A program made the translations under genes and the position numbers. The notes below the pieces were generated by a model, which did not search any database, was not told the DNA's origin, and saw nothing but the letters and a program-made list of their open reading frames with translations. Source: a virus. From it: a DNA stretch of 48,901 nt. Below are positions 29,288 to 48,901 of the stretch, one piece after another (within the stretch, counting starts at the first letter, position 1; every line of letters starts with the position of its first letter). The stretch is taken from positions 1-48,901 of IMG/VR virus record IMGVR_UViG_3300033182_000984, one strand, 5' to 3'.

Positions 29288-30961
29288 ATGCCGAACGCTC
29301 TTGCTCATGCCACGGAATTCAAAGCAATCTCGGGCCAAATCAACGTTGACGAAGCTGAAGGCATCGTTGAGTGTTTCGTTTCCGGTGTCGGAAACAAAGA
29401 CAGTGTTGGTGACATCGTCCTACCCGGTGCTTTTACTGAAAGTCTGAAGCGTCGTAAGCCGCGCGTTGTTTGGGGTCACGACTGGAACCACCCGATCGGC
29501 AAGGTGTTGGAAATTTACGAGGTCGGACCCGAGGATCGACGCCTGCCCGCCAAGATGAAATCTGCTGGCATCGGCGGTTTGTACGCTCGTGTCCAGTTCA
29601 ACCTGAAAGCCGAAAAGGGCCGTGAAGCATTCAATAATGTTGCTTTTTACGGCGAGGAGCAGGAGTGGTCAATCGGCTATAAGACTCTTGACGCCATCTA
29701 CGACAATCAGCGTCAGGCCAATTTGCTGCGAGAAGTTGAACTTTACGAAGTTTCGCCAGTGCTTCATGGCGCTAACCAATTGACTGGTACCATTTCGATT
29801 AAGGCGGACTCTAAAGAGGACGACGAAGTTACATCTTTTGGCAAAAGCAAATGGAAGATGTTTGATCGGAAGTTTGCTGCACGAATCAAAGAGGACTATC
29901 CGGAGATTTGGGCAAAAGGCGGGAACATCAAGGGCAACGCCCAGTACAGCATCCTCACCAAAATCGCCGAAGGGGGTGGCACGGCGACCACCCAGGATCA
30001 GATCAACGCCTTAGAATTGCGCGAGGCGTGGGTGGCCCGGCACGCGGGAGACTTTCGCCTCCCCGGCGTGATCGCCCAGATCAAGTGGCTGGCGGTGGGC
30101 AGCAGGGGCGAGGACTACATGAAGAACGTAGTCCGCGAAGCGATTGAAAAAGTTGAGGAGCGGAAAAAGAAGGGTCTCTTTGATCCTGACGCTGACTTTG
30201 ACCCGGCTGGCGATCTAGACGAGCTCCCCACTGAGGACGACTCCGATGAATCCAAGGGCTACGCCGGAACCGGCATGTGGCGCAATCTCCTAGCCGCTTT
30301 GAGCGAGCGGTTCGGTGGATCCGTCAAGATCCGTGAGATCCGTGGTGGCCGTGTCGTGTTTGATCACATGCACGACGGCGAGAAGATGACAATGCGGGTT
30401 GCCTTCCGTTTCATTGATGGCGAGTGGCTGTTTGGTGAGCCTGACCGAGTTGTCGTGCGCACTATTTATTCCACGATTGAGGACGGGGATGAAGAGGGCG
30501 GCTACGAAGCCAACGAGCCGATGGTTGCGATGCCCCCAGAGAAGGACAAGGATTGTGGTTGTGGTTGCGGAGGCAAGGGCGGTTGCTCCCCTCCGTCTGA
30601 TCCACTTGCTCGAATTCGTGAATTGATGAAATCCGTTTTTGATGATGACGTGCAGGAAAAGGTTGGTCGAGTTATCTCGTCCAGCAACTTGGAGAAACTC
30701 CAGCGGGCTATGGACATTCTTCAAGAGGTCATCGCCGCTGGCGGTCGTGCCGAGATTGAGATGAAAGAGAAAGGACTTGAAGTCCAGGCGCCAGTGCAGG
30801 ATCTTTTTGATCTAAAGTCGCACATTGATCCTGTTTTGGAGCATTACGGTGCGGACACCGAGATCACCGAAAACGGCATCTTTGTGAAATCCGTAAATGA
30901 TACTTCTGGGATGTTTGAAGATGCGTTGCGTAATGCGGTGTCTTCATTCGCGGCGAAGTAA
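29288..30961 (+). CDS. Prohead protease (HK97 family) with extra domains
   Basis: 557 aa, much longer than the usual ~200. Residues 1-170 are the serine protease: 'DIVLPGAFTESLKRRKPRVV', GHDWNHPIG (catalytic H64), EWSIGY (S128) and LYEVSPVLHGAN. Residues 185-290 form a second conserved domain (WKMFDRKFAARIKEDYPEIW, GGNIKGN, LREAWVARHAGDFRLPGVIA, IKWLAVGSRG) that I know from other phage head proteins but cannot name. Next come an acidic linker, a beta domain (about 325-400), a Cys cluster DCGCGCGGKGGC (422-433) and a helical end. It should trim the capsid and scaffold; the added parts may be scaffold or virion domains. Confidence 0.85.
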   Translation: MPNALAHATEFKAISGQINVDEAEGIVECFVSGVGNKDSVGDIVLPGAFTESLKRRKPRVVWGHDWNHPIGKVLEIYEVGPEDRRLPAKMKSAGIGGLYARVQFNLKAEKGREAFNNVAFYGEEQEWSIGYKTLDAIYDNQRQANLLREVELYEVSPVLHGANQLTGTISIKADSKEDDEVTSFGKSKWKMFDRKFAARIKEDYPEIWAKGGNIKGNAQYSILTKIAEGGGTATTQDQINALELREAWVARHAGDFRLPGVIAQIKWLAVGSRGEDYMKNVVREAIEKVEERKKKGLFDPDADFDPAGDLDELPTEDDSDESKGYAGTGMWRNLLAALSERFGGSVKIREIRGGRVVFDHMHDGEKMTMRVAFRFIDGEWLFGEPDRVVVRTIYSTIEDGDEEGGYEANEPMVAMPPEKDKDCGCGCGGKGGCSPPSDPLARIRELMKSVFDDDVQEKVGRVISSSNLEKLQRAMDILQEVIAAGGRAEIEMKEKGLEVQAPVQDLFDLKSHIDPVLEHYGADTEITENGIFVKSVNDTSGMFEDALRNAVSSFAAK

Positions 30962-32964: not shown

Positions 32965-33566
32965 TGGAAGAAAAAGCGCCGAAACCCGCGGCAGTTGAAA
33001 CTCTTCTTGATCTTCCGCAGGAGCGCATCACCGGCGACATTCTTCGTGGGTACGGTCCTCGTAGAGGGAACCTAGAACGCCTGTTGCGTTATTGGCGTCC
33101 GATTATGCGTAAGCCGGGCGGGTTTCGTCGTTGCATGGTGATTCTTGCCGATCATCCAGAGTTGTATCCGTTGGAGCGTCTGTGCGCATGGTTGCATCAC
33201 GAAACGACAGGGTTGTGGCCGAACGAGGGATGTCATCATCCCGGCATGCGGAATTGTCGTGGCAAGCCACGTAAAGGTCGGCGTGGTTCTATCTGGACTG
33301 ATCGTGAGTGGAACCGTCGTCTGGCTCGACGTTTCCGTCGTGGGAAGAAAGACGGCATGGGTGGCATGGTGGAGAACTATGTGGTCACCCAGTCGGATTG
33401 GGATCACGCACAAAAAGTTCTGTCTGATTTTGTTGAGATGGAATCGGATTTCGTGAAGTACATCAATGACTCTGCGAACTGGATGCATGAGGGTCAGGAC
33501 GAGGCCGGCAACTGGGTTGAGCATGAACGCGCCAAGGGTGACGGGGATTGCGGCTGTGGCTGCTGA
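32964..33566 (+). CDS. Basic head-operon protein with Cys tail, unknown function
   Basis: 200 aa. The sequence has an Arg-rich N-terminal half ('GPRRGNLERLLRYWRPIMRK', 'RLCAWLHHETTGLWPNEGCH', HPGMRNCRGK) with a possible metal site made of His/Cys residues, and a helical C-terminal half ending GDGDCGCGC. Similar proteins lie beside portal and MuF genes in other actinophages, though I know no function. The end overlaps the start of the 688-aa gene by eleven bases. Confidence 0.6.
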   Translation: MEEKAPKPAAVETLLDLPQERITGDILRGYGPRRGNLERLLRYWRPIMRKPGGFRRCMVILADHPELYPLERLCAWLHHETTGLWPNEGCHHPGMRNCRGKPRKGRRGSIWTDREWNRRLARRFRRGKKDGMGGMVENYVVTQSDWDHAQKVLSDFVEMESDFVKYINDSANWMHEGQDEAGNWVEHERAKGDGDCGCGC

Positions 33567-35622
33567 AATTCGCCGCATCCGCACTGTCTTCTTGCGCCAC
33601 GTCAAAGCGTTGGAAGAGCCGGTTCCAACCAATCTGTTTTACGAGCCGTTGAATGGATCCGACGAGTTGTTGCGGTACAAGGGAATGTTGTATCGCTCTG
33701 GTGCTTTGAAGCGTGGCGAAGAAAAAGTTGTTGGTGTTGTCGGTTCGTCTAGTCGTGCCGGTCAGGCTGCGCAGGCGGCGGGTTCTATTGCGCTTCCGGG
33801 CAACATCAGCCCTGTCCGTAGCCCTGTGCGGTCCGGTATTGCTCGAGCGTTGACGCCAGGCGGTGGTCGTGGCCGAGGAAGCGTTGGGATTCCGGGTAAG
33901 CCTGAGCGTGGCTGGCGGTGCCCTGAAGGCTTTCAGTTCGGTGGACGTTTCACTGATGAAAACTTTTCTACGTGCGGTAAACAGTTGTTTGATATCCCGT
34001 CGCTACGGGAAACGATTGGGCAGGCGGTATACCGCACGCGTGGTTACCGTGGCACTGGCGGCGCACCTGAAGCTCGTGGTGGTGAAGCACGAAAGTTGAC
34101 TGCCGCTGAAGCCCCTGATGTTGACATCATGGTTAGACGTGCCGCCAACGTTCCGGTGGTCGGCGACGAGGACAAAAAGCAACGTTCGGCGTCAATCAAA
34201 AATGCTGTTGAGGCTGTCCAAAATCAAGATGGCACTTCGGCTTTGCTGGTTCGTCGTGACGGTTACGTCATGGTTCCGGTCGTGTCTTCTGAGGAGTTGC
34301 GTGGCGTTCCGGATAACCGCAACATGGAGCAGGCTGCGTGGGTTCAGTCGGTTCGTGATCCTGATCAGATCGGCCGTGACGAGTTGGGTTTCTTGTCCAA
34401 CACGGGTGTCACCACGCTTACTTACGTTACGCCTAATGGTGTACAATTGACGTTGGATCGCACACGCGATTTATCAACAGGTGAACGTCGGCAATTAGGT
34501 AAGGATGTAAACAAAGCCGCCGACATGAGCGTGGATGACGATCCGGCCGCAAGATTGAAGTTTCTCGCTGAGAAGTCCGACGGCGCTTTTGAATTCTCTC
34601 AGGATTTTGGCGACGTGAAAGACCCAGAGGGTGAAGTGACTTCGGGCGAGGGTGAGGGGAAGGCGAAATGGGTTGTTGGGGCATTCATTGATCCACCCGA
34701 GGAACGTGTTGAGGAAGTTGCGGAACCTGACGAGCAGTCTGATGCTGGTGCTGCTGACGCTCCTGTCGTTGAGCGTGTCACTGCTGCTGACGGCGAACGA
34801 ATTGACTCCGTTAAGGAGGCCGTGGAGCACATCAACAAGGGTGGGCTACTGGCGGATATTGATCCGTCGATTGTTATTGAGGCTCTGAAAAAGTCTGACA
34901 GGTACAAGGCTCGTAAGCTCAACGACGACATCACCTTGTATGAGTCTGAGGACGGACAGCGCATCCTGTTGAATGAAAACGCCGAGCGGTTTGAGCATTT
35001 GAGCGCTCATTTCTCGTCGGAGGTGTTGCGTGAGATGGGTGTTCAAGCGCCGGCGGTGCGTTTCGCTGGCGAGGGTGACACTCGTCCGTTCTTGTATCGG
35101 TCTCCGGATGGCGTCATTGAAGGCGCCGAGTTGTTGGACGACGTAGACCCAGAAGAGTTGCCCCCGGACGTAATCTTGGGCACACAGTTCGCTGACTATT
35201 TGACGGACACTAGAGATCGTTCTAACGCTTCGGTTCTGGGTGTTCAGGTTGGTGACACGACAGAGGCTGTTGTGACGGTCGGTCCGATGGCTGCGCTTAT
35301 CGGTTTGGACGAGGATGAACTTGAGGCTCGTCGAAACATCGGTCCAGAAGAGTTCTTTGAGCAAACCACTGAAGCGTACGGTCGTAACTTTGAAGGCGCC
35401 GATGAAGAAACTCGGTCATTGATGCTTCAGGTTGTTGAAGGTTTGCTTGAGCGTGCCCGAGAGTTCAACTTTGATGAGTACCGCCAGAAACTTGAGTCAG
35501 ACGGTATTCTTAGTGAAGCCGAACTACAACATCTTGAGATTGTTCAAGAAATTTTTGAAACTCGGCTTGAGGCTTTGAATTCCTCAAAAGACACCATTCT
35601 TCATATCTTGGGTCTGTCATGA
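33556..35622 (+). CDS. Large virion protein with degenerate kinase-like domain
   Basis: 688 aa if started at the GTG at 33556; ATG at 33523 or GTG at 33538 are alternatives. Residues 119-142 hold the motif GWRCPEGFQFGGRFTD...CG, shared with the 2484-aa protein. A globular domain lies at about 190-330. The C-terminal ~270 residues look like a diverged protein- or PI-kinase fold: 'DDITLYESEDGQRILLNENA' (N-lobe strands), 'SSEVLREMGVQAPAVRF' (helix), 'ADYLTDTRDRSNASVLG' (catalytic-loop-like, D554 and N557). The usual DFG/IDHG is replaced by VTVGPM, so it is probably inactive or altered. It is likely a minor capsid or ejected protein. Confidence 0.6.
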   Translation: MAAEIRRIRTVFLRHVKALEEPVPTNLFYEPLNGSDELLRYKGMLYRSGALKRGEEKVVGVVGSSSRAGQAAQAAGSIALPGNISPVRSPVRSGIARALTPGGGRGRGSVGIPGKPERGWRCPEGFQFGGRFTDENFSTCGKQLFDIPSLRETIGQAVYRTRGYRGTGGAPEARGGEARKLTAAEAPDVDIMVRRAANVPVVGDEDKKQRSASIKNAVEAVQNQDGTSALLVRRDGYVMVPVVSSEELRGVPDNRNMEQAAWVQSVRDPDQIGRDELGFLSNTGVTTLTYVTPNGVQLTLDRTRDLSTGERRQLGKDVNKAADMSVDDDPAARLKFLAEKSDGAFEFSQDFGDVKDPEGEVTSGEGEGKAKWVVGAFIDPPEERVEEVAEPDEQSDAGAADAPVVERVTAADGERIDSVKEAVEHINKGGLLADIDPSIVIEALKKSDRYKARKLNDDITLYESEDGQRILLNENAERFEHLSAHFSSEVLREMGVQAPAVRFAGEGDTRPFLYRSPDGVIEGAELLDDVDPEELPPDVILGTQFADYLTDTRDRSNASVLGVQVGDTTEAVVTVGPMAALIGLDEDELEARRNIGPEEFFEQTTEAYGRNFEGADEETRSLMLQVVEGLLERAREFNFDEYRQKLESDGILSEAELQHLEIVQEIFETRLEALNSSKDTILHILGLS

Positions 35623-38600
35623 GCGTAACCATCAATGTCATAACGGATGATTTGGCGCAAAACCTGCACAGCGTCACTCTCGACGATGGTGTCAACATCA
35701 AAGCCTACGGAATCACGAAGAACGGTTCTCTTTGGGCGCACTGGGCGGAAACAAAAACTGCCGAGGTGGCGTACGAGAGTCTTCCAAAAATTATGTCGCG
35801 GAGCGGTTTTAATGCTTCGTCCAAGTCGCTAGAAGTTATTGAAGAACTCATTCCGCAAGACGTTTACGTTCAACTCGTCAAAGATCTCCCCGGAGATGTG
35901 CTGGTTGGGGATGGTCCTCGCCATGAGACGATGGGTCGCCGTTACGTGGCTCGCCACGTCGCCACAAAAACGTTGGTGGCTGCTCCTTCAACAGTTCGTC
36001 GCCCGTTGCACACGTTCTCTCCGGAGCAGAGGCGTGCCGTTGTCCAGTACAAGGTCAACCGTTTCTACACGCAACAGAAATATTCCACGCTGAATCTTGA
36101 AGTCAAAAAGGTCCGTGCGATTTTTGATCGGAACATCGGACCCGGTGGCGGTTGGCGTTGCCCTGACGGAACCATGTACGGCGGTCGTATCACTGATCGT
36201 TTTGGACGTGGTTGTGGTGGTGGACTGACTCGTCGTATCGGTCAGGCCATCATGCGGGCGGGTCGTCGTCTTGATGACATCGGTCAGGCACGTGATACTC
36301 GTCGTGCGGCACGCCGTGCGCAACGTCAAGTGAACCGAGCGAGGCGCGCTGATCGTCGTGCTTCACGTCGTGGTAGGGCGAGTAATGCTCTGGAGCGTTT
36401 GAGCCAGCGTCTCGTTGGTGATTACGTTCCGGCGGATCGCCGTATTGGCCGTGAGGCTCGAGGCGGCATGGATGTTGAGACGGGCCGAGCTCGTCGTCGT
36501 CCAACTCCTGCGCCTGATGTGGTGCCGGACGGCCCTCCGGCTCGGCCGCAGGGTGGGCGTCGTCGTCGCAGAAATGTTCCTGAGGGCGATAGGCGGCCTC
36601 GTCGTGAGAACCGGACTGGTCGTAGGCGTCGTGTGTTTGATGAGGCGACGGGCGATGTTGTTGATCCGGACACGGGTGAGGTTCCGGAGCGCCGTGAACG
36701 GGATCGTGACGGTGGTCGTGGTGGCATGCCTCGCACGATTGAAGAAGTTGATGCTCGTATCGCCGAACTAGAGCGAGAGCGTGCAGAGAATCGTCGGCGC
36801 CGAGATCCAAACAGGCGTGATGGCAACATCCGTGAGCGGGAGATTGACGACGAGATCCGTCAACTTGAATTGCAACGGGCGTTCCTACAACAAGAGGGTC
36901 GTGACGGTGATCGTGATCGGGTTGAGCGTGATCCCGATCTGATTGATGGTTCTGGATCCGGTCTTTTGCCTCGTGGACCTGATGGCCGTCGCCCTGATCG
37001 TGACGGCCGACGTCCTCGCCCTGATGGCGACGGCCGACGTCCTCGCCCTGATGGCGACGGCCGGCGCCCTGCTCCTCGTCCGCGTCCTGACGGAGATGCA
37101 CGCCCGGCGCCTCGTCCAAGACGTGAGCAGACCGGTGAGCGCCCTGATCAGCGTTTGTCTTTGCGGGAACGTGTTGCTGACGCTATTGAGCGTGCTGTCC
37201 AAAGACTGATCGGTAACTATGTTCCAGCTGATCGTCGTACTGGCCGTGAGGCCCGTGGCGGTTTGCCTGTTGATCGTGAGCGTCGTAACCGGCGTGCACA
37301 GTTGTCTAATGCGTTGGAGCGTGCCGCTCAGCGTCTTCTTCGCCGACGTGATGGACGTTCTCGTGAACGTCGCCGTGAGGACAACCGTCGTCGGCGTCGT
37401 CGTGATGAGCGGACGATCACTGATGAGGAGATGACGAACAGGCTGGAACGTGAACTTCGTGAGGAGTTGAACCTCACACCTGAGCGTGATCCGGACGCCG
37501 CCCCTGAGGATGCTCGTCGTGACGATGAGATCCGTGAGGATGTGGAAGAGTTCGTTGAGGCAATTTCTGCTGAACGTGATGCCCCTGACGCACCCGATGC
37601 AGATGAGGCTGATGATCCGTCCGAGGCCGCCATCCAAGAGTCAATTGATCGTGCCGCTGAGGTAGACGGCAATTACTTTGACATGACTGACGAGGAACTT
37701 CAAGAGATTCTTCGTGACGTTGATGCCCGTGATCAAGCCGGTTATCCCGACGAACTTGATGCCGGCCGCGAGATGGGCGCTGAGCGAGAGTTGGACAGGC
37801 GTGGCGTTCAACCCCGTGCCACCGAAAGGGAGCGCCCAGATCCCGCTGACGTTGACCGTCGTCTCATTGCGGAGGCAGAGGAGCGTCGCCGTAACGGCGA
37901 GCCGCCAACCCGTGAACAGCAGGCCGCGATTGAACGGCAACGCGACCGTGACATTGTGGAGGCGGAGCGTGAGGCTCGTCGTCGAGTTTCTGAAGAAGCC
38001 GCTGGACCGGATCGTGACGATGATGACGATCGTTCTCCGGAAGAGATTCTGGATGATGATCAGTATCTGATTGACGAGGCTGAAGCTCGTCGTCGTGAGG
38101 GTCAGCCGCCGACTCGTGAGCAGCAGGCTGCGATTGAGCGTCAACGTGAACGTGAGATGCAACGTATAGCAGGAGACGCTGAGGAGCGTCGCCGAGAGCG
38201 TCTCGGTGCGGAAGATGAAGAGGAGCGTCGAGTCGCTGAAGAAGTTGAGCGGGAAGGTGACGAGATTGACGACCTCGTTGGATGGGATAGTGAAGAGGTC
38301 GCCGAAGAGGTCGCAGAGGTTGAACGAGTCGTCTCTCTGCGTGCCCGTAAGGATCGTTGGGTTGACGATTCCGAAATTGAGGCCGCTGACACTGAGAGCC
38401 TTGAGCGCTTGGTTGATGAGATTGACAAAACCGACATGGAAGGGTTGTCCGTGCTTCAGCGCGTGGGCCTTCTGCGAAACCGCAAACTGGCGCAACGGCA
38501 GTTGGACATCCGAGAAGGCCGAGACGGTGTTGACGTTGATCCGGTAAGTCGCCGCGATTTGACGAACGTCCGTAACCGGTTCCCGCGTCGTGGTCTACCA

Positions 38601-41600
38601 CGTCGAGCGTTCTGGCGTGACGACGATTCAATGAGCCGCTCAGACAAAGATGCCTACGAGAGGCGTTTCGGTCAGTACTACTACGACGATGAAGGCAACT
38701 TGAACCGTCGTGGTTTGCGTGTGAACCGTGAACTTGGCCGTGAGCGCCACGAGCGCTTGCAGGCTGAGCGCGACAAGGAAATGCAGGCCGCAGGGGAGCG
38801 AGGCGAGGCGGCTTCTCCTCCTGATAGGACGCCGCTGGAGCAGCGTAGCGATCGGACGGTTGTTGATCCTGACGGCGTGGAGCGCCCTGCGGTTCCTTCA
38901 GAGATTGATCCGATGGCGGAACTTGGTGCAACAGGCAACAACAGCGACGACTTCGCGCGCCGATACTTGGACCGTCAAAATCGGCGATCTGAGGAACAGA
39001 ATCTTGTGTGGCGGAATCTGGACGCTGGCTTCCGTGACAACATTGACAATCCTGAAGACCTCCGAGATTTTGCGAATGAAGTTGAAGAGGAAATGGCTGA
39101 ACTCAGAGGTCGCATCGGCGCCCGAGATTCTGATGTCGTTGAGCAGGCCGACGTCAGAAACGGCATCATTGCCCGAGAAGCAGCTCTTGCCAGAATCAAC
39201 AATCGGTTGAGCGACTTTGAGACTGAAAGCGTCATCAGCGGTCGTGATACGGACGACGATTTCCCAGCGGCCCGTGCCCGAAACGCTTTGGATGATCTGG
39301 TTATGGAGGCTGTCGGCGCCGATCGTGAAGCCGCTTTGGATGAGCGCCTTGAAAAGTTGATGGATTCCGAGCAGGGCCGTGAAATTGTTCGTGAAGCAAT
39401 GCGTGAACGGCTGGACAAACTGCAACAGCATTTTGAACGTCCTGATGAGAACCCAGACACGCTGGTTGAGACGGACGAGTTTTTGGACACGATGGCTCGT
39501 GCCGCCAAGCGTCGTGGTGAAGGCGATCTGGATCAGTTGTTCTACAACACCCTCACGGAAATGTTCGGCAACACCGCTGCGGGAGAAAACCTTTACCCCG
39601 GTGACGATGGGGATGGCCGAATCACGCCAACGGGTCGCTTGCGTGTGTTGAACCAGTACGCCCGTGCGCGTAAAGACATTCGTGATCGTCTAGATCGTGG
39701 CAATCAACTGCCCGGTCACATTTTTGCTTTGGCCGATATTGAGAATCAGCGTTTCGGCGATCGTGACCCCGATCCGATCGCCGAAGTTGTTCAGCGACAG
39801 CTTGTTTCTGCCTTGTTGAAGAACACAATTCCGAGGCTTGTTGCGGATGATCGTGGTATCGGTGAAGGAACTGTTCGCCGAATGATTGACCTTGAACGCA
39901 ACGGGGGTCTTGAAAGAAATCTAAACCAAATGTTGGACAATCTTCAGCAGGTTGAACGTTTCGACGTTGATCAAAACTTTGCGAACGTGATTGTTGCGAT
40001 GCTGCAAGAGGCGCGTGATGCGAGACGTCGTGGGGACAGCGATGTCGCCAACGAACTCACAGAGGAACTTGATCGATTCGGTGCTGCGTTGGGTGCTCGG
40101 CTGCGAGAGCAGAACGGTACCGAGTTCCCGCCTGATCTTCGTGCAGACGATTTTGCTGGAATGGGTGGCGTCCTTGATAGGGCTGATAATTATCGTGGCT
40201 TCGGTGTGGACATGCCGGGCAGTCCGCGTGAAATGGGCGACGATGCGCTTCAAGAGCAGTTTGAGTTCCTTGAGCGTCTACATAACCCAGAACTGCTACG
40301 CCAGTATGTAGGCGAGCGAGGTTTTGAAAGCCCGCTTGAGCAGGCGCTTGTTTTCCAGCGGATCAATCAGCTTCACGGTCGTGGCCGTGTCCAAGAAAAC
40401 CGACGTATTGAACTTGCCGAGGAAATGAATCGCCGTGGCTTGAAGGCGTTTGATGCTGATCGTGCCGCTAACCGAGTTCAGCGTCAACGCATGGAGGCCG
40501 CTCAAGGTATCAATGATCCTCTTGACGGCAGTCCGGCTCGCCGCATGGAGAAGATGGTTGACGAAGCATTTGATCGTCGTCGTGATCAGCTTCAGCGAAT
40601 TGATGGTTTTGATCCTGCGAACCCGCCGTGGGAAAACCTTTCCGACGACGACTTGTTGATTGACCCCGACAATCTTCGGGCGATCTTGGATGGCAGTGAT
40701 CCAACACTTGGAGGCATAGAGCGCAACCGAGACAAGATTGACGCTGCGTTCGCCAAAATGTTTGTCATTGAGTACACGGCCCCCGACGGCACCAAGATGC
40801 GGACTACGCGAGCCACCGACGACTTGGACAACGGTGTCCGCCGTTGGAGAGACACTTCGTTTGATCCGAATAACGGTGGCGACTGGTTCCACACCCAATA
40901 CAACGGTCAAGTCGTCGTTGGACTAAACATTGAGGCTCAAAACTCCCAGGGTGAATGGGTTCCTGTCGGATACTCCATCCGGAGTTTCTTCGGTGACGCC
41001 GTTGGGGACGATGACTACGCCCCGCGTGGCATTGAGTCCAAATATCTCGTCATTGACAGGGTTGATATTGAGAGCAAGAAGCGCTTAAGCAATGCCGGCG
41101 GTTATTACATTGACGATCGTGGCAGTTTCCGAAATGTCACTGCTGATCTGCACTATGCCGAAACGCGCGACATTGGCGGACCAGAAGCGCTTGAAGAACT
41201 TGAGCGCAGAGGACTACTGACGAAAGCAAATCAAGGTAAAACTTTTGAACTTGAAGACGGCACTCGTGTCGTCCTTACAGGAACCCCGAGAGCAAACAGT
41301 ACTGACAACGACTGGGCCTTGTATCAAGCAGCGGATCCAGACGCCAAAGTACCTAGAGACAATGGTTTTGGAACGGCGTTCAACTACCACTGGTTCAACT
41401 ACGCCAACGCCCTCGGCTACAACAAGATCACAGTTTCCGCAGGTCTAGAAGACGGCGGCTATGTGTGGGGCCGATTCGGATACAGACCTGCAACTTCTGG
41501 TGAGATTCGTAGCATGCGTGACGCCGGTGTTCGCGAGATTATGAACTTTGACGCAGGCAGAAACAGCATCATTAAAAACGCCGAGCAACGTGAACTCCTG

Positions 41601-43073
41601 CAAACCGTTCTTGACCAAATGGAAGCCGCTAACTTCAACGTCAAGACGTCGCCCGCTCACCTTGAGATGATTTTGGCTCTGGAGAACGGTGACTCGTCAA
41701 AGGGGCGTCGTCAAGAAGTGCGTGACTTCATGAGGCCGTTCAACATCCTCAACGGCCAGATTGATTTCAGCGATCCGCGCCGAGGGTTCATCCATACCAA
41801 ACCCACCAATAAGCGCGATCGAATGGATACCCGTTTTGGTAATCCTGCTCAACGTGATCCGGTTATGGGCCGAATCACTGAAGACGCAACTTCAACTTCA
41901 GGTTTGGCTCAGCCTCGTCAGATTACGAACCCGAAGATTCAGACCACTGACGCTGCGGTTGCCCATGTCCGCAACGGTGGCTCGCTCGACGAAGTTCCAA
42001 ACGAGTTCTGGCATGACGCAATCCGTCAGAACGCCTCGGATCGAGAGAATGATCCAAGCACGATGTTCTTCATCCAAGTGCAAGACTGGGATCAGACCGG
42101 CAACATGTCGTCCACGTTCATCTATCGGCGTCGCAAAGCCGACGGAACGCCTGGAGATCAAGGCTATGTGATGAAGGAATCTTTGGGCAACGCTGCTCTG
42201 GATGGCGGCTGGGACGAGCCTGCCGCTGACGTCATCGGTTATAACGTGGCGCACGCTCTTGGTCTCATGCCGGAAGGCGCCGGCTGGGACGGTGCTGGCG
42301 ACACTACCGGTCAGCCCCTTGCTGTGATCCCGTTCGCTGGCGGTTTGTTTGCTGATGGAGTGACGGACGTCAATGGCTACGGCGGAACGTTCGGTATAGA
42401 TCCAATTGATGGCACGTCACGGTTGCAGAACTACAGCCCTGAGTTGTTGGATCGTCAGCCCAAGCGTGCCCTGCCGCAGAGATTCGGCCATTTCCTGCAC
42501 AACTATCTCCTCGGTGGGTTTGACAAGCACAACTTGAACGGCATGGCGATGGTGGGCGACGACGGCAATACAGTGATTGCACCAATTGATCATGGTCGCA
42601 TGGCCCTTGATGGCTTGATGGATGGTATGGATCCGGCTCGGCAACAGCTGTTGCGCCAACAGTTCAATATGATGGTTCCTGGAGCCTCGGAACTGTATGA
42701 GGCTTTGCTACCCGACGCTGACATGCGCCGGTACGGTGACAATGCTTTCTGGCTTGATATGAACATGATGGACAAGATTCAGGACTATTACCAAAGCATC
42801 CCTGCTGTTGATCAGCGTGAGTTCCGTGAAGAAATGATCGCCATTTATGACGACTTGATGGAACGCGCCGAGCGGATCGCCGCCGAAGGCGATCAAGCAT
42901 TCATTGCTCAGATTCAACAGCTTCGTGATGCTGGGGGTCTGCCGCCTGCGGGATTCGCTTCTTGGGATGAGTATGTTGAGCGTGTGAAGCAATATCACAA
43001 TCACTTGTCCCAGAAGGTGGCGCAGGCTGATGCGAACCGTCAGATTCTGCTTGATGCGCTGGGAGGTTCGTGA
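35619..43073 (+). CDS. Giant multidomain polyvalent-like protein with kinase-like C-terminus
   Basis: 2484 aa. N-terminal domain 1-170; Cys motif GGGWRCPDG...GGRITDRFGRGCGGG (176-200); an Arg/Asp/Pro-rich region (about 210-720) with internal repeats; a long charged helical region (about 720-1900); a GNAT-like segment ('GFGTAFNYHWFNYANALGYN', YVWGRFGY, about 1915-1955); and a C-terminal domain (about 2140-2430) with PI3/4-kinase- or HipA-like motifs: YVMKES (K2186), FDKHNLNG (D2302, H2304, N2307) and IDHGRMA (D2324). These match Lys for ATP, catalytic loop and metal-binding Asp. The layout recalls phage polyvalent proteins delivered with DNA. It occupies about 15 percent of the window. Confidence 0.7.
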   Translation: MSVTINVITDDLAQNLHSVTLDDGVNIKAYGITKNGSLWAHWAETKTAEVAYESLPKIMSRSGFNASSKSLEVIEELIPQDVYVQLVKDLPGDVLVGDGPRHETMGRRYVARHVATKTLVAAPSTVRRPLHTFSPEQRRAVVQYKVNRFYTQQKYSTLNLEVKKVRAIFDRNIGPGGGWRCPDGTMYGGRITDRFGRGCGGGLTRRIGQAIMRAGRRLDDIGQARDTRRAARRAQRQVNRARRADRRASRRGRASNALERLSQRLVGDYVPADRRIGREARGGMDVETGRARRRPTPAPDVVPDGPPARPQGGRRRRRNVPEGDRRPRRENRTGRRRRVFDEATGDVVDPDTGEVPERRERDRDGGRGGMPRTIEEVDARIAELERERAENRRRRDPNRRDGNIREREIDDEIRQLELQRAFLQQEGRDGDRDRVERDPDLIDGSGSGLLPRGPDGRRPDRDGRRPRPDGDGRRPRPDGDGRRPAPRPRPDGDARPAPRPRREQTGERPDQRLSLRERVADAIERAVQRLIGNYVPADRRTGREARGGLPVDRERRNRRAQLSNALERAAQRLLRRRDGRSRERRREDNRRRRRRDERTITDEEMTNRLERELREELNLTPERDPDAAPEDARRDDEIREDVEEFVEAISAERDAPDAPDADEADDPSEAAIQESIDRAAEVDGNYFDMTDEELQEILRDVDARDQAGYPDELDAGREMGAERELDRRGVQPRATERERPDPADVDRRLIAEAEERRRNGEPPTREQQAAIERQRDRDIVEAEREARRRVSEEAAGPDRDDDDDRSPEEILDDDQYLIDEAEARRREGQPPTREQQAAIERQREREMQRIAGDAEERRRERLGAEDEEERRVAEEVEREGDEIDDLVGWDSEEVAEEVAEVERVVSLRARKDRWVDDSEIEAADTESLERLVDEIDKTDMEGLSVLQRVGLLRNRKLAQRQLDIREGRDGVDVDPVSRRDLTNVRNRFPRRGLPRRAFWRDDDSMSRSDKDAYERRFGQYYYDDEGNLNRRGLRVNRELGRERHERLQAERDKEMQAAGERGEAASPPDRTPLEQRSDRTVVDPDGVERPAVPSEIDPMAELGATGNNSDDFARRYLDRQNRRSEEQNLVWRNLDAGFRDNIDNPEDLRDFANEVEEEMAELRGRIGARDSDVVEQADVRNGIIAREAALARINNRLSDFETESVISGRDTDDDFPAARARNALDDLVMEAVGADREAALDERLEKLMDSEQGREIVREAMRERLDKLQQHFERPDENPDTLVETDEFLDTMARAAKRRGEGDLDQLFYNTLTEMFGNTAAGENLYPGDDGDGRITPTGRLRVLNQYARARKDIRDRLDRGNQLPGHIFALADIENQRFGDRDPDPIAEVVQRQLVSALLKNTIPRLVADDRGIGEGTVRRMIDLERNGGLERNLNQMLDNLQQVERFDVDQNFANVIVAMLQEARDARRRGDSDVANELTEELDRFGAALGARLREQNGTEFPPDLRADDFAGMGGVLDRADNYRGFGVDMPGSPREMGDDALQEQFEFLERLHNPELLRQYVGERGFESPLEQALVFQRINQLHGRGRVQENRRIELAEEMNRRGLKAFDADRAANRVQRQRMEAAQGINDPLDGSPARRMEKMVDEAFDRRRDQLQRIDGFDPANPPWENLSDDDLLIDPDNLRAILDGSDPTLGGIERNRDKIDAAFAKMFVIEYTAPDGTKMRTTRATDDLDNGVRRWRDTSFDPNNGGDWFHTQYNGQVVVGLNIEAQNSQGEWVPVGYSIRSFFGDAVGDDDYAPRGIESKYLVIDRVDIESKKRLSNAGGYYIDDRGSFRNVTADLHYAETRDIGGPEALEELERRGLLTKANQGKTFELEDGTRVVLTGTPRANSTDNDWALYQAADPDAKVPRDNGFGTAFNYHWFNYANALGYNKITVSAGLEDGGYVWGRFGYRPATSGEIRSMRDAGVREIMNFDAGRNSIIKNAEQRELLQTVLDQMEAANFNVKTSPAHLEMILALENGDSSKGRRQEVRDFMRPFNILNGQIDFSDPRRGFIHTKPTNKRDRMDTRFGNPAQRDPVMGRITEDATSTSGLAQPRQITNPKIQTTDAAVAHVRNGGSLDEVPNEFWHDAIRQNASDRENDPSTMFFIQVQDWDQTGNMSSTFIYRRRKADGTPGDQGYVMKESLGNAALDGGWDEPAADVIGYNVAHALGLMPEGAGWDGAGDTTGQPLAVIPFAGGLFADGVTDVNGYGGTFGIDPIDGTSRLQNYSPELLDRQPKRALPQRFGHFLHNYLLGGFDKHNLNGMAMVGDDGNTVIAPIDHGRMALDGLMDGMDPARQQLLRQQFNMMVPGASELYEALLPDADMRRYGDNAFWLDMNMMDKIQDYYQSIPAVDQREFREEMIAIYDDLMERAERIAAEGDQAFIAQIQQLRDAGGLPPAGFASWDEYVERVKQYHNHLSQKVAQADANRQILLDALGGS
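36409..37263 (+). repeat. Internal duplication in the giant gene (QRL-GNYVPADRR unit)
   Basis: A segment around 36409-36475 (QRLVGDYVPADRRIGREARG) is repeated around 37195-37263 (QRLIGNYVPADRRTGREARG), each preceded by an ALER/AIER helix. DNA copies have diverged mainly at third positions while the protein is kept, so the unit is under selection. Confidence 0.7.
37002..37078 (+). repeat. Tandem 27-bp repeat coding for DGRRPRPDG
   Basis: Two exact copies of a 27-base unit (37002-37028, 37029-37055) and a diverged third (from 37056) lie in frame in the giant gene. They encode a basic Arg/Pro/Asp-rich linker. Exact copies indicate recent slippage expansion. Confidence 0.8.
37861..38161 (+). repeat. 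Internal duplication in the giant gene (EAEERRR-PPTREQQAAIERQR unit)
   Basis: A ~31-residue charged helical unit occurs at about residues 748-778 and 817-847 of the giant protein. Both copies share the core PPTREQQAAIERQR with conservative changes around it. The spacing suggests duplication of a longer coiled-coil segment. Confidence 0.65.
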
Positions 43074-43408: not shown

Positions 43409-43778
43409 GAAACCCGAACCCCCGAAGTCTCCAGTGGCTGTTGAGCAGGACGACGCCGTACTCACTGACGCACAGCGTGCGCAAATCACCCAGTTGTTCA
43501 TGAAGCGTGTCCGTGACCCCAAGATGCGTCGCATGATTGTCCGCTACTCCACGTTCCTTGCGGAGAGCCGTGATAACGACACGTTCTATTCGTCTTTGTA
43601 CACATTCTCGTTGTCAGAGAACTTTGACAAGCTGCGTCAGTCGTACGAGGATTTCGCTGTTGACGCCATTGATCTCAGCGAGTTTGACGAGGATGCGGCG
43701 GAAGGCGTGAAGAAACTTGTTGATGAGTCAATGACTGCTCGTCCGAAGAAGAAGCCCACTCGCAAGAAGAAGAAGTAA
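43398..43778 (+). CDS. Small helical protein with basic tail
   Basis: 126 aa from the ATG at 43398 (GGTGA five bases upstream), overlapping the upstream stop by eleven bases; a longer frame from 43158 overlaps too much. The body is helical ('LTDAQRAQITQLFMKRVRDP', 'RRMIVRYSTFLAESRDNDTF') with an acidic middle and a strongly basic end (TARPKKKPTRKKKK), typical for DNA- or nucleoid-binding virion proteins. The stop overlaps the next start (TAATG). Confidence 0.65.
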   Translation: MASKKPEPPKSPVAVEQDDAVLTDAQRAQITQLFMKRVRDPKMRRMIVRYSTFLAESRDNDTFYSSLYTFSLSENFDKLRQSYEDFAVDAIDLSEFDEDAAEGVKKLVDESMTARPKKKPTRKKKK

Positions 43779-45910
43779 TGGCTGCCGACGACGAGGACCG
43801 CAAGCGGATCGTCGCTCGGATGGCTCGTTTTTTGGGCTGCCGTGGAACACATCGATCCGAAGACGGCGAGTTGATGCCGTGTTCCAGTAACGAGGAACTC
43901 GTCCGCATTTCTCGTCGTGCGGAGCCGAAGAAAAAGGATTACATCACCGAGGATGAAAAACCGAAAAGGAAACGCAAAGGAAAGCGTCGCCGCGACCATT
44001 GGGAGGAACTTGGCGCTCGTGGCCCAGTTGGAATCGACTCGCTTCCGGCCGGAGGGTTGGTTTCCGCAGCGGTAGGAGCAAAGCAGGCGTTCGTGTTCGG
44101 GCGGGCGAAGCCACGTCTCGGCGACCCAGACGTTTTTACGAATCCTCATTCGGCTCGCCTGCGGGCAAGACAACTCGGATGTATCGGAATTGCTCGTCGC
44201 AACACACCCGAAGGCGATGTTGTTTGGACGCCATGCACGAACGTTTCTGATTACCGTCGTCGGCTGGGCATCGGCCCTCAGGCAACTCGGGATCGCCGCC
44301 GTCAAGAGGACGCTATGTTGCGTCGTTTGCGACGACGCACTCGAGGTAAAGCGGCTATTCCAGTTGATGGTGATGGCGATGGGTTTGTCAACGATGGGAA
44401 ACCCAATCAAATGCCGGCGCCTGGAATTAACTTGACGTCTGGTGCCGCAGATCTGCTTCGGCGTCAAGTTCGCTCAGCACGGGATCGTATCAACGAGATC
44501 CAGAGACGTATCGCTAAAGATTCGGACAAAAAAAAACCGAAAGTTACGCCATCACGTTCTTCTAATTCTCTTCCGGATACGTCGGCTGGTGGTCTTGCCG
44601 GAATCGCTGAACGACTCAGAGACCCAGATGGCGGGTTCACTATCAACCTGAACCAGATGAGCGATGTTCGCTCAGGTTGGGCTATTGCCCGTAACGGTAA
44701 CGGTGTCACGTTTGACGCTTCTGACATTTTTGATGACGACGGCAACGTTCGTGATGGAGCTGACGACAAGATTTTGGCGTTCATTGCGCTACACGCAGAC
44801 GAGATGTTAGAGCCTCCTACCGAGGAAGGTCATCGCGTGGCGTTCGGTGCGTGGCACAACCCAGAGGACGGCAAGATTTACTTAGACGTTACCGATGTGT
44901 ACGACAAGAAGTCAATGACAAAAGAAGATGCGGTTCTCAAAGGTAAAGAGAACGATCAGATTTCTATTGCCGATCTTGATTTGATTCGTAAGGGTGTGGA
45001 GACCGGCGAGTGGGACGACGACGCCTTCGTGGATTCCGGCGGAACCGGCCAAAGCCAACTGGACAACGATCGCTACAACGCCATCCTGGCTGCTTTACGA
45101 CAGAATCCTGATGAGCGAGATGGAAAGAGGCAGGCGCCGTCCGCTCAAGAACGGGTCGTTGAAAGTGATGATGGTGTGCCAATGATGTTCGGCGAACCTC
45201 AACGAGATCTTGCCGCCAAACACGGTGTTGAAAAAGACTGGGCCGAGGTGCGAGCCGTGGATCCTGAACGTCGCAAAGAAATTTCTGACTTCTACGCCAA
45301 CGCTCCAGATCCGACTGCCGAAGAAATTTCCGAGGAAGTACGTGAAGCGTACGAAGCGCTGACTCTTGAGGTTGAGCAACAGTTTGAGATGTTGACCAAG
45401 GAACTTGGCGTCAGCGTGGAGTTCGTTGATGATGATCCTTACGAGAATTACTTTGAGATGCTCCGAGACTTTCAGCAGAACCGTCGTTTGAAGATCATGA
45501 AGACCGAGACGACCGGATCTCATCCGTTCTTCACTGACGAGCAGAACGACAAGTTCCGAGCCGTCCACGATGCGTTCGGCCATCTGGCGACCGGCCGAGG
45601 ATTTGATCGACATGGTGAGGAGGCCGCCTATCAGGCTCACCGTTCAATGTTTTCCGAGACCGCTGGGAAAGCGGCGGCGACTGAGCTCCGTGGACAAAAC
45701 TCGTATCTGATTCAGAACGGCGAGTTCGGCCCGCAGAAACTGTTGATCATGCCGAGTGATCTCCGCAAGCGGTTGTATCTGCTTCTGGGCATGAAGGTCG
45801 GGAATGTTGACAGGATGAGGGATGCGCAGGTAGCATCTGATGCTGATAACGCGTTTGACAAAACTGGAAGTCACCATGTTTCGTGCGGACGCATAAAGAG
45901 AGGAGCGTAA
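43778..45910 (+). CDS. Large multidomain head/ejected protein with Ca-binding loop and His-rich domain
   Basis: 710 aa. The N-terminal region has a basic stretch and two Cys motifs (FLGCRGTHRSEDGELMPCSS and LGCIGIARRNTPEGDVVWTP-C). A DxDxDG loop (VDGDGDGFVNDGKPNQMPAP, D197, D199, D201) resembles EF-hand or dockerin calcium sites. Residues 300-420 form a beta domain (HRVAFGAWHNPEDGKIYLDV). The C-terminal part (about 500-690) contains FRAVHDAFGHLATG (H597, H602) and RHGEEAAYQAH (H612, E614, E615, H621), a conserved-looking His/Glu set that could be a metal or catalytic site. I cannot name this domain. It follows the giant protein and may be packed in the virion. Confidence 0.6.
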   Translation: MAADDEDRKRIVARMARFLGCRGTHRSEDGELMPCSSNEELVRISRRAEPKKKDYITEDEKPKRKRKGKRRRDHWEELGARGPVGIDSLPAGGLVSAAVGAKQAFVFGRAKPRLGDPDVFTNPHSARLRARQLGCIGIARRNTPEGDVVWTPCTNVSDYRRRLGIGPQATRDRRRQEDAMLRRLRRRTRGKAAIPVDGDGDGFVNDGKPNQMPAPGINLTSGAADLLRRQVRSARDRINEIQRRIAKDSDKKKPKVTPSRSSNSLPDTSAGGLAGIAERLRDPDGGFTINLNQMSDVRSGWAIARNGNGVTFDASDIFDDDGNVRDGADDKILAFIALHADEMLEPPTEEGHRVAFGAWHNPEDGKIYLDVTDVYDKKSMTKEDAVLKGKENDQISIADLDLIRKGVETGEWDDDAFVDSGGTGQSQLDNDRYNAILAALRQNPDERDGKRQAPSAQERVVESDDGVPMMFGEPQRDLAAKHGVEKDWAEVRAVDPERRKEISDFYANAPDPTAEEISEEVREAYEALTLEVEQQFEMLTKELGVSVEFVDDDPYENYFEMLRDFQQNRRLKIMKTETTGSHPFFTDEQNDKFRAVHDAFGHLATGRGFDRHGEEAAYQAHRSMFSETAGKAAATELRGQNSYLIQNGEFGPQKLLIMPSDLRKRLYLLLGMKVGNVDRMRDAQVASDADNAFDKTGSHHVSCGRIKRGA

Positions 45911-46692: not shown

Positions 46693-48051
46693 ATGGCAGA
46701 CGAATCTCGTCTCAGCGAACTTCAGGGCGCTCTGCGCAAGAAGATGGCTGACAACAAGGAGATTGCCGACTCGTTCAAGTACGAAGATGGCGTTCTCGAG
46801 GTCTCGAGCGAGCAGAAGGCCGCTTTTGACCGCAACATGCAGGACATCAAGGAGATCAAGAGCCTCATTGAGGGTCTTGAGGGCATGAACGACGTTCAGG
46901 CTTGGGCTGACCGCCCGGCCGGCGAGAGCGTCGGTCAGAAGGCTGACGCTCAGGCGTTCGCCGCCGAGGTTGCTGACGCCGTCCGTAAGGGCGCTTCGGC
47001 CAAGTCGCTCGGTGAGCTCTTCATCGAGTCCGACGAGTTCAAGGCTCTCCAGGGCGGACACAACGGCGCCAACATGCCGTCGCCGTGGCAGCTCAAGACC
47101 TCCGACTTCACGGGCTACAACCAGAAGGACGTCTACTCGGCGCTCCCGAGCGGCACCCCCGGATCGTTTGGAACCATCCAGCGTGATCCGATCGTGGATC
47201 AGCCGACTCGGACCCGTCGCGTGCGCGACCTCTTCCCGGCCCGCACCACCACCGCTGCGGTCATTGAGTACTTCCGCATGCTCGGCTTCACCACCCCCGG
47301 CTCGACGGCGACCAACGCCGCCTCGTCGGTTGCGGAGCGGAGCGGTTCTGCGTTTGGCCTCAAGCCGCAGTCCTCGATGCAGTTCATCGGTGAGCAGGCT
47401 CCGGTTCGGACCCTCGCCCACTGGGAGGCTGCCCACCGCAACGTCCTCGCTGACGAGCCGCAGCTCCGGTCGATCATCGACAACGAGCTGATGTACGGCC
47501 TCCGTCTTGAGGAGGACGACCAGATCCTGAATGGTGACGGCACGGGTGAGAACCTGACCGGCATCCTTCAGACTTCGGATGTTCAGACCTACGCTTGGTC
47601 GGACGGCAACTACGATGCGTCGAACGCGGCGCTGACCGACAAGAAGGTTGACGCGATTCGTCGCGCGGCCACCCTGTCGTTCCTCGCGTACTACGAGCCG
47701 ACTGGTGTCGTCATGCATCCGAATGACTGGGAGGAGATCGAGCTCTCCAAGGATGCGAACGGTCAGTACCTCGTGGCGGTTTCGGTCGCCATGGGCGGCG
47801 AGCCGCGCATCTGGCGGATCCCGGTCATCGAGACCCCGGCCATCGCTGAGGGTACGGCCCTCGTTGGTGCCTTCGGCACCGGCGCTCAGCTGTACGACCG
47901 CGAGCAGGCCAGCATCCGTATCTCGGAGCAGCACAGCGACTTCTTCGTTCGCAACGCGATCGTCGTCCTCGCTGAGCAGCGCCTCGCCCTTGCGGTGAAG
48001 CGTCCGGAGGCGTTCGTGAAGGTTTCCTTCGACGCCGCCCCCAGCTCCTGA
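46693..48051 (+). CDS. Major capsid protein, HK97 fold
   Basis: 452 aa. The first ~100 residues are a helical delta/scaffold domain ('LSELQGALRKKMADNKEIAD' to 'DIKEIKSLIEGLEGM'), expected to be removed by the protease. The HK97 core follows: 'VDQPTRTRRVRDLFPARTTT', 'IEYFRMLGF', 'HWEAAHRNVLADEPQLRSII', 'NGDGTGENLTGILQTSDVQT' (a glycine-rich loop common in this family), 'PTGVVMHPNDWEEIELSKDA' and a closing 'IRISEQHSDFFVRNAIVVLA'. Codon choice is strongly biased to C-ending and G-ending codons compared with its neighbours, as for a very highly expressed gene. It is followed by a strong terminator. Confidence 0.93.
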   Translation: MADESRLSELQGALRKKMADNKEIADSFKYEDGVLEVSSEQKAAFDRNMQDIKEIKSLIEGLEGMNDVQAWADRPAGESVGQKADAQAFAAEVADAVRKGASAKSLGELFIESDEFKALQGGHNGANMPSPWQLKTSDFTGYNQKDVYSALPSGTPGSFGTIQRDPIVDQPTRTRRVRDLFPARTTTAAVIEYFRMLGFTTPGSTATNAASSVAERSGSAFGLKPQSSMQFIGEQAPVRTLAHWEAAHRNVLADEPQLRSIIDNELMYGLRLEEDDQILNGDGTGENLTGILQTSDVQTYAWSDGNYDASNAALTDKKVDAIRRAATLSFLAYYEPTGVVMHPNDWEEIELSKDANGQYLVAVSVAMGGEPRIWRIPVIETPAIAEGTALVGAFGTGAQLYDREQASIRISEQHSDFFVRNAIVVLAEQRLALAVKRPEAFVKVSFDAAPSS

Positions 48052-48209: not shown

Positions 48210-48901
48210 GTGTCCCTAAAACGGTTACGTCGCAAGGGCTGGAACATCTTCGCTCCCGTCGCAATCTTGGCTGTCGTCAGCTCTGGGGGTACGGCTAACG
48301 CTGCGTCGTACACCGTTTCAGAAGAGTCGGAGTGGGAGTTCACCGTGAGTGCCACGGAAACCGTCTACATCTACGGCAACTCTAACCGTGACTGCAATCA
48401 GCCGGGCGCCGACCCGTACCTGTGGTTATACAACTCGTCAGGGACGCTCGTAACCCAGAACGATGACGGGAACCACGGCTCAGGGCAATGCGTATCATCT
48501 AAAATAGTTGCAACGCTTCAGCCGGACACCTACACGATTCGTGCTGGGTACTGCTGTAGTCAGCGAACACTGGGAACCAATCCGAGTGGATACGACTACG
48601 AGTTGGTTATTCAGGACTACGAACTGACTGGCTCCGGCACCACGACGACAACAACGACGGCCCCAACAACGACAACGACGACAACAACGACTACAACAAC
48701 AACGATCCCGCAAACCGTTGGAGATCCAACAAACCTGTCACTTTCCGTCGATTACACCAGCGGAACCGTTGCCGTCAACTGGGATGCCCCAACGGGTGGC
48801 ACTCTCAGCCCAGAGCGGTACGCCATCGGCTTCGGTCTCAACGACGAAGGCAACGCCAGCCCATATGCCGTAGCCACAGGGAACGTCGGGGACGAGAACG
48901 C
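48210..48901 (+). CDS. Secreted PPC-like / Thr-linker / Fn3 protein (cut by window edge)
   Basis: 230 codons visible, running off the right edge. Start at a GTG with GGAGGT five bases before it. A signal peptide is clear: basic n-region (SLKRLRRKGW), hydrophobic FAPVAILAVVSS and a likely cut after ANA (residue 31). Residues 34-136 resemble a bacterial pre-peptidase C-terminal (PPC) domain: 'DPYLWLYNSSGTLVTQNDDG', LQPDTYTIRAGYC, with four Cys. Then a Thr linker (7 Thr, Ala-Pro, 13 Thr; 144-165) and a fibronectin-III-like start (PTNLSLSVDY, VAVNWDAPTGG). It follows the capsid terminator, with a TAATAT hexamer at 48183-48188. It looks like a host-derived accessory gene; a virion adhesin is the alternative. 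Confidence 0.7.
   Translation, partial: MSLKRLRRKGWNIFAPVAILAVVSSGGTANAASYTVSEESEWEFTVSATETVYIYGNSNRDCNQPGADPYLWLYNSSGTLVTQNDDGNHGSGQCVSSKIVATLQPDTYTIRAGYCCSQRTLGTNPSGYDYELVIQDYELTGSGTTTTTTTAPTTTTTTTTTTTTTIPQTVGDPTNLSLSVDYTSGTVAVNWDAPTGGTLSPERYAIGFGLNDEGNASPYAVATGNVGDEN

Follow-up and report, generated by a model that had tools for sequence, protein, structure and literature searches.

The window is a viral record, 48,901 bases long, whose head operon carries a gene for a protein of 2484 residues and 282 kDa, here termed the giant slot protein, whose C-terminal ~380 residues look, on sequence grounds, like a kinase of the PI3/PI4-kinase, CtkA or HipA type. We lean slightly towards the view that this is a late head-operon cargo protein whose kinase, catalytically intact as far as its motifs indicate, would be injected to act on a host molecule. 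The evidence comes from related viral loci (designated by L numbers), from a neighbouring gene product, p718, and from a short segment, or tag, common to both proteins.

The open reading frame (ORF) begins with an ATG at 35619, contains no internal stop and closes with its stop codon at 43073. Guanine–cytosine content is higher at codon position 1 (0.64-0.82) than at positions 2 (0.41-0.54) and 3 (0.47-0.59) in all five ORF blocks, as is expected for one coding frame over the entire gene. A search with p718 gave four viral relatives, among them L005, a 104.8 kb contig with a full homologue of the giant protein in the same place, and a two-sequence profile then found the homologue in L009. These homologues are of near-equal length (2454 and 2426 residues, respectively) and the same architecture; the N terminus, a GNAT-like segment and the C terminus are conserved among the three proteins, and the middle matches in short stretches only. 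Start, stop, frame and homologues thus bear out the ORF of the original prediction, which had been made from the letters of the window.

The kinase-like C terminus

The gene, the domain and its putative catalytic elements are located as follows.

35619..43073, plus strand: giant slot protein (ORF, with homologues in L005 and L009)
41919..43070, plus strand: PI3/4-kinase/HipA-like kinase domain, residues 2101-2484 (family profile, alignment and predicted structure)
42174..42176, plus strand: K2186, putative ATP-binding lysine (K in 19/21 and 80/89 domains)
42228..42230, plus strand: D2204, putative position of the lysine-partner glutamate (E in 19/21 rows, A in 1/21, D in the window alone)
42522..42539, plus strand: catalytic loop D2302-K-H-N-L-N2307 (D and N in 21/21 and in 85/89 domains, 4 gapped)
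42588..42596, plus strand: putative metal-binding D2324-H-G (D in 21/21 and in 85/89 domains, 4 gapped)

Searching the Protein Data Bank (PDB) with a profile of 17 homologues returned CtkA (E 0.0017), PI4KB (0.004), mTOR (0.012) and PI3K-alpha (0.023); the best 60 of the 141 matches were CtkA, PI3/4-kinases or the related mTOR and DNA-PK, and both displayed alignments span the catalytic loop. Ten homologue segments were scanned with the Pfam model PF00454, which L059 passes (31.2 bits against a cut-off of 27.1) and to which L022 (24.3 bits) and L038 (21.7 bits) come close, with three segments giving no match. Similarity to known members of the class is significant, at borderline strength, and derives from the family rather than from the lone window sequence. 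The HipA_2 model (PF20613) was not reached by ten homologue segments (best 21.5 bits, L022, against 27) or matched by the window. Single-sequence searches of Pfam, PHROGs, NCBIfam and cultured phages with the kinase part gave nothing significant, a two-row kinase profile gave nothing useful against the PDB, a three-row profile nothing significant in bacterial genomes, and neither the C-terminal kinase piece nor the GNAT-like piece, each used alone, found a relative among viral contigs.

Comparison with characterised kinases points the same way at the level of motifs. CtkA of Helicobacter pylori (PDB 3akj/3akk), the top profile match, shares with the window a D-x-G and has the motif DRHNGN, but is a small stand-alone kinase without tag or phage context, unlike the giant protein. 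PI4KII-alpha, PI4KB and VPS34/PI3K (PF00454) show the same motif order and the same predicted order of structural elements as the window domain; one homologue passes their Pfam model, although the window sequence does not reach it.

The residues singled out in the original prediction, K2186, D2302, N2307 and D2324, stand where it had placed them (FDKHNLN, APIDHG). The C termini of L005 and L009 are 36% and 32% identical to the window, and K2186, D2302, H2304, N2307, D2324, G2326 and R2327 are invariant among the three. With near copies removed and the window counted, D2302, N2307 and D2324 are present in each of 21 aligned slot domains and the lysine in 19, the two exceptions being tandem copies in L068. 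The slot protein concerned (L068:1869-5861) has two kinase-like domains in which the ATP-binding lysine is changed to Ala and Gln, with the D-N-D triad retained. Across 89 non-identical slot domains the triad is intact in 85, the other four being gapped there, and lysine and triad occur together in 79; the glycine position after D2324 holds G in 57 of the 85, S in 25, D in 2 and A in 1, the window reading D-H-G. Between the kinase domains of L049 and L061, nonsynonymous divergence (dN) is 0.17 and synonymous divergence (dS) 2.3, the latter near saturation (NG86). Conservation of the triad together with this pattern of purifying selection is what would be expected of an enzyme and not of a relic. 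A kinase-like motif arising by chance, or decaying within a structural protein, would suit a window sequence that lacks a Pfam match and yields a weak AlphaFold model, but it is already contradicted by the triad being intact in each of the 85 homologous domains without a gap there, by purifying selection in one pair of relatives and by a family profile that finds kinases; we give it next to no credence.

Several results weigh against an intact, delivered kinase. The window sequence alone has no Pfam match even at E 10, so that our claim is restricted to the fold class and does not extend to membership of PF00454. The AlphaFold model of the domain has a kinase-like order of strands and helices, with about 160 mostly helical residues downstream of the DxG motif, but its mean predicted local distance difference test (pLDDT) is 58.5 and its predicted template modelling score (pTM) 0.56, and pLDDT falls below 50 over model residues 200-279, within which the catalytic loop lies. 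Structure comparison on the DALI scale ranked PI4KII-alpha (Z 7.7, root-mean-square deviation 4.6, 234 aligned), CtkA (6.4), VPS34 and HipT (5.7 each) and CotH (5.5), with PI3K also near the top and a few helical proteins interspersed, at values that by the tool's own note may be due to chance (Z below 8). With Foldseek, no PDB entry matched at E ≤ 1e-3; the top of the list was mostly FGFR kinases, from E 0.22 upward. The 89-domain profile was built from triad-bearing members, so that domains without the triad may be under-sampled, and searches covering 50,697 phage records turned up no member of the clade.

The best Foldseek match in the viral structure library BFVD is A0A6J5MJB0, a protein of 614 residues from an uncultured Caudovirales phage annotated as a PI3-/4-kinase catalytic domain (E 2.6e-5). 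The original prediction had suggested checking the domain by profile searches and structure prediction; the profiles do find kinases, and the predicted fold is kinase-ordered but of low confidence, with no Z above 7.7. The family profile, the PF00454 score of L059, the motif conservation and the low-confidence structure ranking together support its assignment of the C terminus to a PI3/4K/HipA type of kinase. The same fold class includes lipid kinases, PI4KII-alpha having the top Z, and some kinase-fold enzymes have non-kinase activities, which would favour an injected effector that transfers AMP or another group, or one whose substrate is a lipid or a small molecule. However, the domain retains the usual K, E/D, D, N, D set, as do ordinary phosphotransferases, and we regard this alternative as quite improbable.

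A tagged neighbour and a variable slot

The kinase-like domain appears to have a relative immediately upstream, in p718, whose stop codon overlaps the start codon of the giant gene (ATGA).

33538..35622, plus strand: p718, tagged neighbour (longest ORF from 33466, 718 residues; GTG start near 33538 inferred from homologues)
33898..34041, plus strand: tag in p718, KPERGWRCPEGFQFGGRFTDENFSTCGKQLF... (hidden Markov model, HMM)
34741..35619, plus strand: probable pseudokinase domain, p718 C terminus (hhalign, catalytic positions, tree)
36138..36263, plus strand: tag in the giant protein, residues 174-215, GPGGGWRCPDGTMYGGRITDRFGRGCGGGLTRR... (HMM, and viral contigs scanned with the N-terminal part of the protein)

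The C-terminal domain of p718 is colinear with that of the giant protein. Profile comparison with hhalign, in which E refers to a single comparison, gave a probability of 97.4 (E 1.1e-11) when 39 p718 rows were compared with 11 kinase rows, and of 98.8 (E 8.7e-17) with 18 kinase rows; earlier small alignments had given a weak result (probability 11, E 0.0028), and four controls with MCP (major capsid protein) and GNAT-like profiles gave probabilities of 0.1-0.4. The catalytic triad is found in none of 20 p718 rows chosen after removal of near copies, all 20 of which have Ser or Thr at the position of N2307, nor, in a second count, in any of the six different p718 rows that the kinase profile aligned. 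In a tree, a branch with support 100/99 has all the p718 rows on the same side. Rooting was at the midpoint, and the tree therefore does not show the direction of change between the two domains; in the midpoint-rooted drawing ten kinase rows lie closer to p718 than the window kinase does. An AlphaFold model of p718 (pLDDT 44.3, pTM 0.30), in which structure comparison aligned almost solely C-terminal helices, is too poor to contribute, so that the case rests on the profile comparison, the conserved positions and the tree. From these, the C terminus of p718 is probably a paralogue of the kinase domain without its catalytic residues, a pseudokinase, and to our knowledge of the open-licence literature no such pseudokinase family has been described from the head operons of phages. 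The pseudokinase profile is matched by 40 of 53 p718-like clusters; the other 13, which are shorter (431-592 residues), are recognised by neither of the two profiles, kinase or pseudokinase.

Where visible, the gene order in related loci is p200 - p718 - variable slot - p710 - MCP. Of the 169 matches to an MCP query the best 80 loci were kept, and p718 and MCP are both visible in 49 loci, counting the window and near copies (elsewhere the locus may be truncated or p718 absent). The distance between the two genes is 1.3-2.0 kb in 28 of these and 4-11 kb in 21; a kinase-like domain occurs in 10 of the 21 expanded slots, window included, and in none of the 28 compact ones. Such counts are partly redundant through near-copy contigs (e.g., L022/L024/L025, L064/L065 and L087/L088), and one locus comparison omitted the duplicate and reference loci L001, L006, L008, L010, L011, L013-L021 and L034. 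The slot protein of L012 terminates directly after the GNAT-like domain, without a kinase, and L059 has the kinase-like domain on one protein and the GNAT-like domain on another, so that the kinase part looks like a detachable module. Among 32 large head-operon proteins chosen from uncultured loci, Pfam matches at E ≤ 0.01 comprised PI3_PI4_kinase (5), NUDIX (2) and zeta toxin (2), with 38 families in total.

These loci bear on the idea that the kinase acts on the phage particle itself, by phosphorylating head or tail proteins or by forming an assembly or scaffold complex with p718. It would account for the position of p718, which ends in a paralogue without catalytic residues, adjoins the giant gene and is present in 49 loci where it is visible with MCP, and for the tag on both proteins. 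Assembly seems not to need a kinase in the 28 loci with a compact slot, however, as judged from the content of the slot, and 13 of 53 p718-like clusters have no pseudokinase domain; we consider such a role rather unlikely.

A cargo function is suggested by the place of the giant gene between protease and MCP and by the tag. Both p718 and the giant protein contain a short segment of the form RCP[ED]G...GGRFTD...CG, which occurs in 73 of the 4974 ORFs of the first set of loci. Scanning viral contigs with the N terminus of the giant protein gave 68 tag loci (from the best 80 of 93 matches, partly on contigs of the earlier sets), 61 of which contain a portal, protease or MCP gene. The combined loci hold 294 tagged ORFs, of which 208 are unique and form 160 clusters: 58 have a kinase-like end, 19 a GNAT-like end and 3 both, 40 are p718, and 40 have no assigned end. 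Among the last group are the 13 short relatives of p718 and some ORFs truncated where their contig stops. Each protein has exactly one copy of the tag (160/160 clusters). Up to five consecutive tagged proteins with kinase-like or GNAT-like ends were found in related phages by a scan of plus-strand ORFs; in L128 the array reads kinase-like, short p718 relative, kinase-like, kinase-like and GNAT-like, followed by p710 and MCP. The tag may mark proteins that are to be loaded into virions and delivered to the host.

The rest of the giant protein and its surroundings

Upstream of the kinase-like domain, three further regions of the giant protein stand out.

36264..37418, plus strand: Arg-rich low-complexity region, residues 216-600 (29.6% Arg, isoelectric point (pI) 11.7, net charge +40)
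37419..38318, plus strand: acidic region, residues 601-900 (pI 4.2, net charge -60)
40725..41774, plus strand: GNAT-like conserved domain, residues 1703-2052 (24 clustered segments, window counted)

The composition of residues 216-600 agrees with the Arg-rich region described originally. Inspection by eye shows long peptides recurring in the charged part, YVPADRRxGREARGG at residues about 265-283 and 529-548 and PPTREQQAAIERQR at residues 749-776 and 817-845, and the gene contains a 27-base tandem repeat at 36989-37070. The one PHROG match of the whole protein is to 14927, of unknown function (E 0.00055, residues 121-153). The GNAT-like segment of the original prediction holds up as a conserved domain, but its identity as a GNAT is not established: weak acetyltransferase matches (NCBIfam Eis, E 0.015; PDB N-acetyltransferases, E 0.11 and 0.19) were gone with a 23-sequence profile, and no GNAT family of Pfam was matched among four members. 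A calbindin match to the GNAT-like profiles (E 0.0013 and 0.0041) was taken as chance matching of helices. From its sequence, the giant protein of the window looks like two tagged slot proteins fused.

The head operon lies on the plus strand in the order portal, S78 protease, p548, p200, p718, giant gene, p206, p710, p224 and MCP, and PHROG and Pfam matches to the portal, protease and MCP confirm the location that had been proposed for the giant gene.

26986..29202, plus strand: portal protein with a MuF-like C terminus (PHROG 2662, E 5.2e-105)
29288..30961, plus strand: prohead serine protease, S78 (PF04586, E 1.2e-14)
43778..45910, plus strand: p710, downstream gene with relatives in most clade loci (phrog_3170)
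46693..48051, plus strand: MCP (phrog_10, E 2.6e-64)

The C-terminal part of p710 is similar to gp205 of Rhodococcus phage E3, annotated as a 'structural protein'. A motif FDPxAxDGDGDGxxQEGTxFxRPAxP, noted at p710 (43778-45910), recurs in 21 ORFs, mostly slot proteins between p718 and MCP, and may be a second address tag. The product of p548 (31009-32655) has Cys-rich clusters (CMVSGQKRMEPCDGCSNPKGC and others), is possibly metal-binding and gave no significant PHROG or Pfam match. At 48210-48899 lies a secreted-looking protein with a Thr-rich linker, truncated by the end of the record. On the minus strand, Pfam identifies the large terminase (25443-26747), divergent from the portal gene, and a Rad52-like protein (24224-24904); a histone-deacetylase-family protein (19604-20530) and a PAPS-reductase-like protein (18444-19718) are encoded there too, the former being a curious companion to a possible acetyltransferase segment in the same phage.

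Among cultured phages, the MCP is 47-55% identical to those of phages of Gordonia and Brevibacterium (best 15 of 976 records), and the window phage is probably an uncultured tailed phage of an actinobacterium. The bacterial genome data contained a single p718 relative (L100:7244-9115), in a contig of a Phycisphaerae metagenome-assembled genome that is possibly a stray phage contig. In keeping with a cargo role, cultured relatives also carry genes between portal and MCP: an ADP-ribosyltransferase in GMA6 and Chidiebere, RNA-ligase genes in Chidiebere, DalanDe and Cantare, and large proteins in most of which no clear domain is seen. Streptomyces phage Gilgamesh, found through its portal, has a protein of 4624 residues at this place. 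The Gordonia phages GMA6 and Chidiebere thus resemble the window in having effector-like genes at this place beside a related portal and MCP, but the enzyme families are different ones. The idea that slot proteins of cultured actinophages share the kinase family or the tag was unsupported: 32 such proteins of five phages had no significant match to the kinase, p718 or tag profiles (best E 0.014, below inclusion). The slot proteins of GMA6, Chidiebere, DalanDe and Cantare (L015, L016, L017 and L019), which the tag HMM does not match, have by eye a motif of their own, RRVRTxEGxxKYGxPIGSII. A Vibrio phage protein weakly matches the L059 kinase protein (E 4e-3, 23% identity, 14% of the query).

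Possible roles and relation to known systems

We propose the following for how the injected cargo might work. The tag would recruit p718, the giant protein and other slot proteins to the assembling head, where the Arg-rich region may keep the cargo on packaged DNA. Tagged cargo would then enter a new cell together with the DNA, and there the kinase would phosphorylate a host molecule to the advantage of the phage. HipA, HipT and CtkA are analogues that point to a protein, rather than a lipid, as the more likely substrate. A wider model, which we offer tentatively as a possibility, is that of a modular virion-cargo system: the Cys-containing tag of ~45 residues would address the head, p718 would be a resident component that usually ends in a pseudokinase, tagged proteins, up to five in an array and differing in their kinase-like or GNAT-like C termini, would be packaged and injected jointly as an entry effector kit, and the giant protein would be a fusion of two effectors.

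Several elements of this proposal are already known, namely a HipA-type kinase between portal and MCP, polyvalent proteins in head operons and a phage protein annotated as a PI3/4-kinase. That polyvalent-type proteins are likely packaged was argued by Iyer et al. (2017, PMC5512222), and the original prediction had invoked their concept. It fits in general, as here too there are large multidomain proteins among virion genes, with a shared tag and differing C termini, and the domain classes described there include kinases and GNATs. It fits less well in detail: the kinases of polyvalent proteins are described as a Ser/Thr/Tyr-type group that has lost the C-terminal subdomain, and the main text of PMC5512222 contains neither 'HipA' nor 'PI3'. 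By that description the window domain, with its PIK/HipA-type matches and ~160 residues after the DxG, may be of another type, although the first rows of the Foldseek search were FGFR kinases at E 0.22.

A parallel in position is found in five gut phages of the Gratiaviridae, in which a HipA-family kinase lies between portal and MCP (Benler et al. 2021, PMC8008677); the likeness is drawn from their published description. Upstream of that kinase are an AAA ATPase and a glycosyltransferase, and the passages of PMC8008677 on these phages name no tag, pseudokinase paralogue or giant fusion. Benler et al. read their kinase as a late immunity factor, which speaks against injection and leads to the main rival explanation for the window, that the kinase acts late, without being injected, in the cell that makes the phage, modifying host surface or defence proteins and so blocking superinfection. 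The same gene position and kinase type, and the place of the giant gene among head genes, agree with it. It leaves unexplained, however, why kinase, p718 and other slot proteins have a tag in common and why the kinase is fused to a charged, helical protein of ~2000 residues. We judge it unlikely, while granting it the most weight among the alternatives.

The reading as injected cargo takes in the tag, the pseudokinase neighbour and the multi-protein tagged arrays, none of which was found in the open-licence literature. If it is true, PI3/4K/HipA-like kinases, often beside a probable pseudokinase, are tag-marked cargo in a large group of uncultured tailed phages, and the tag opens two questions to experiment, namely which proteins a phage packages as effectors and how loading takes place.

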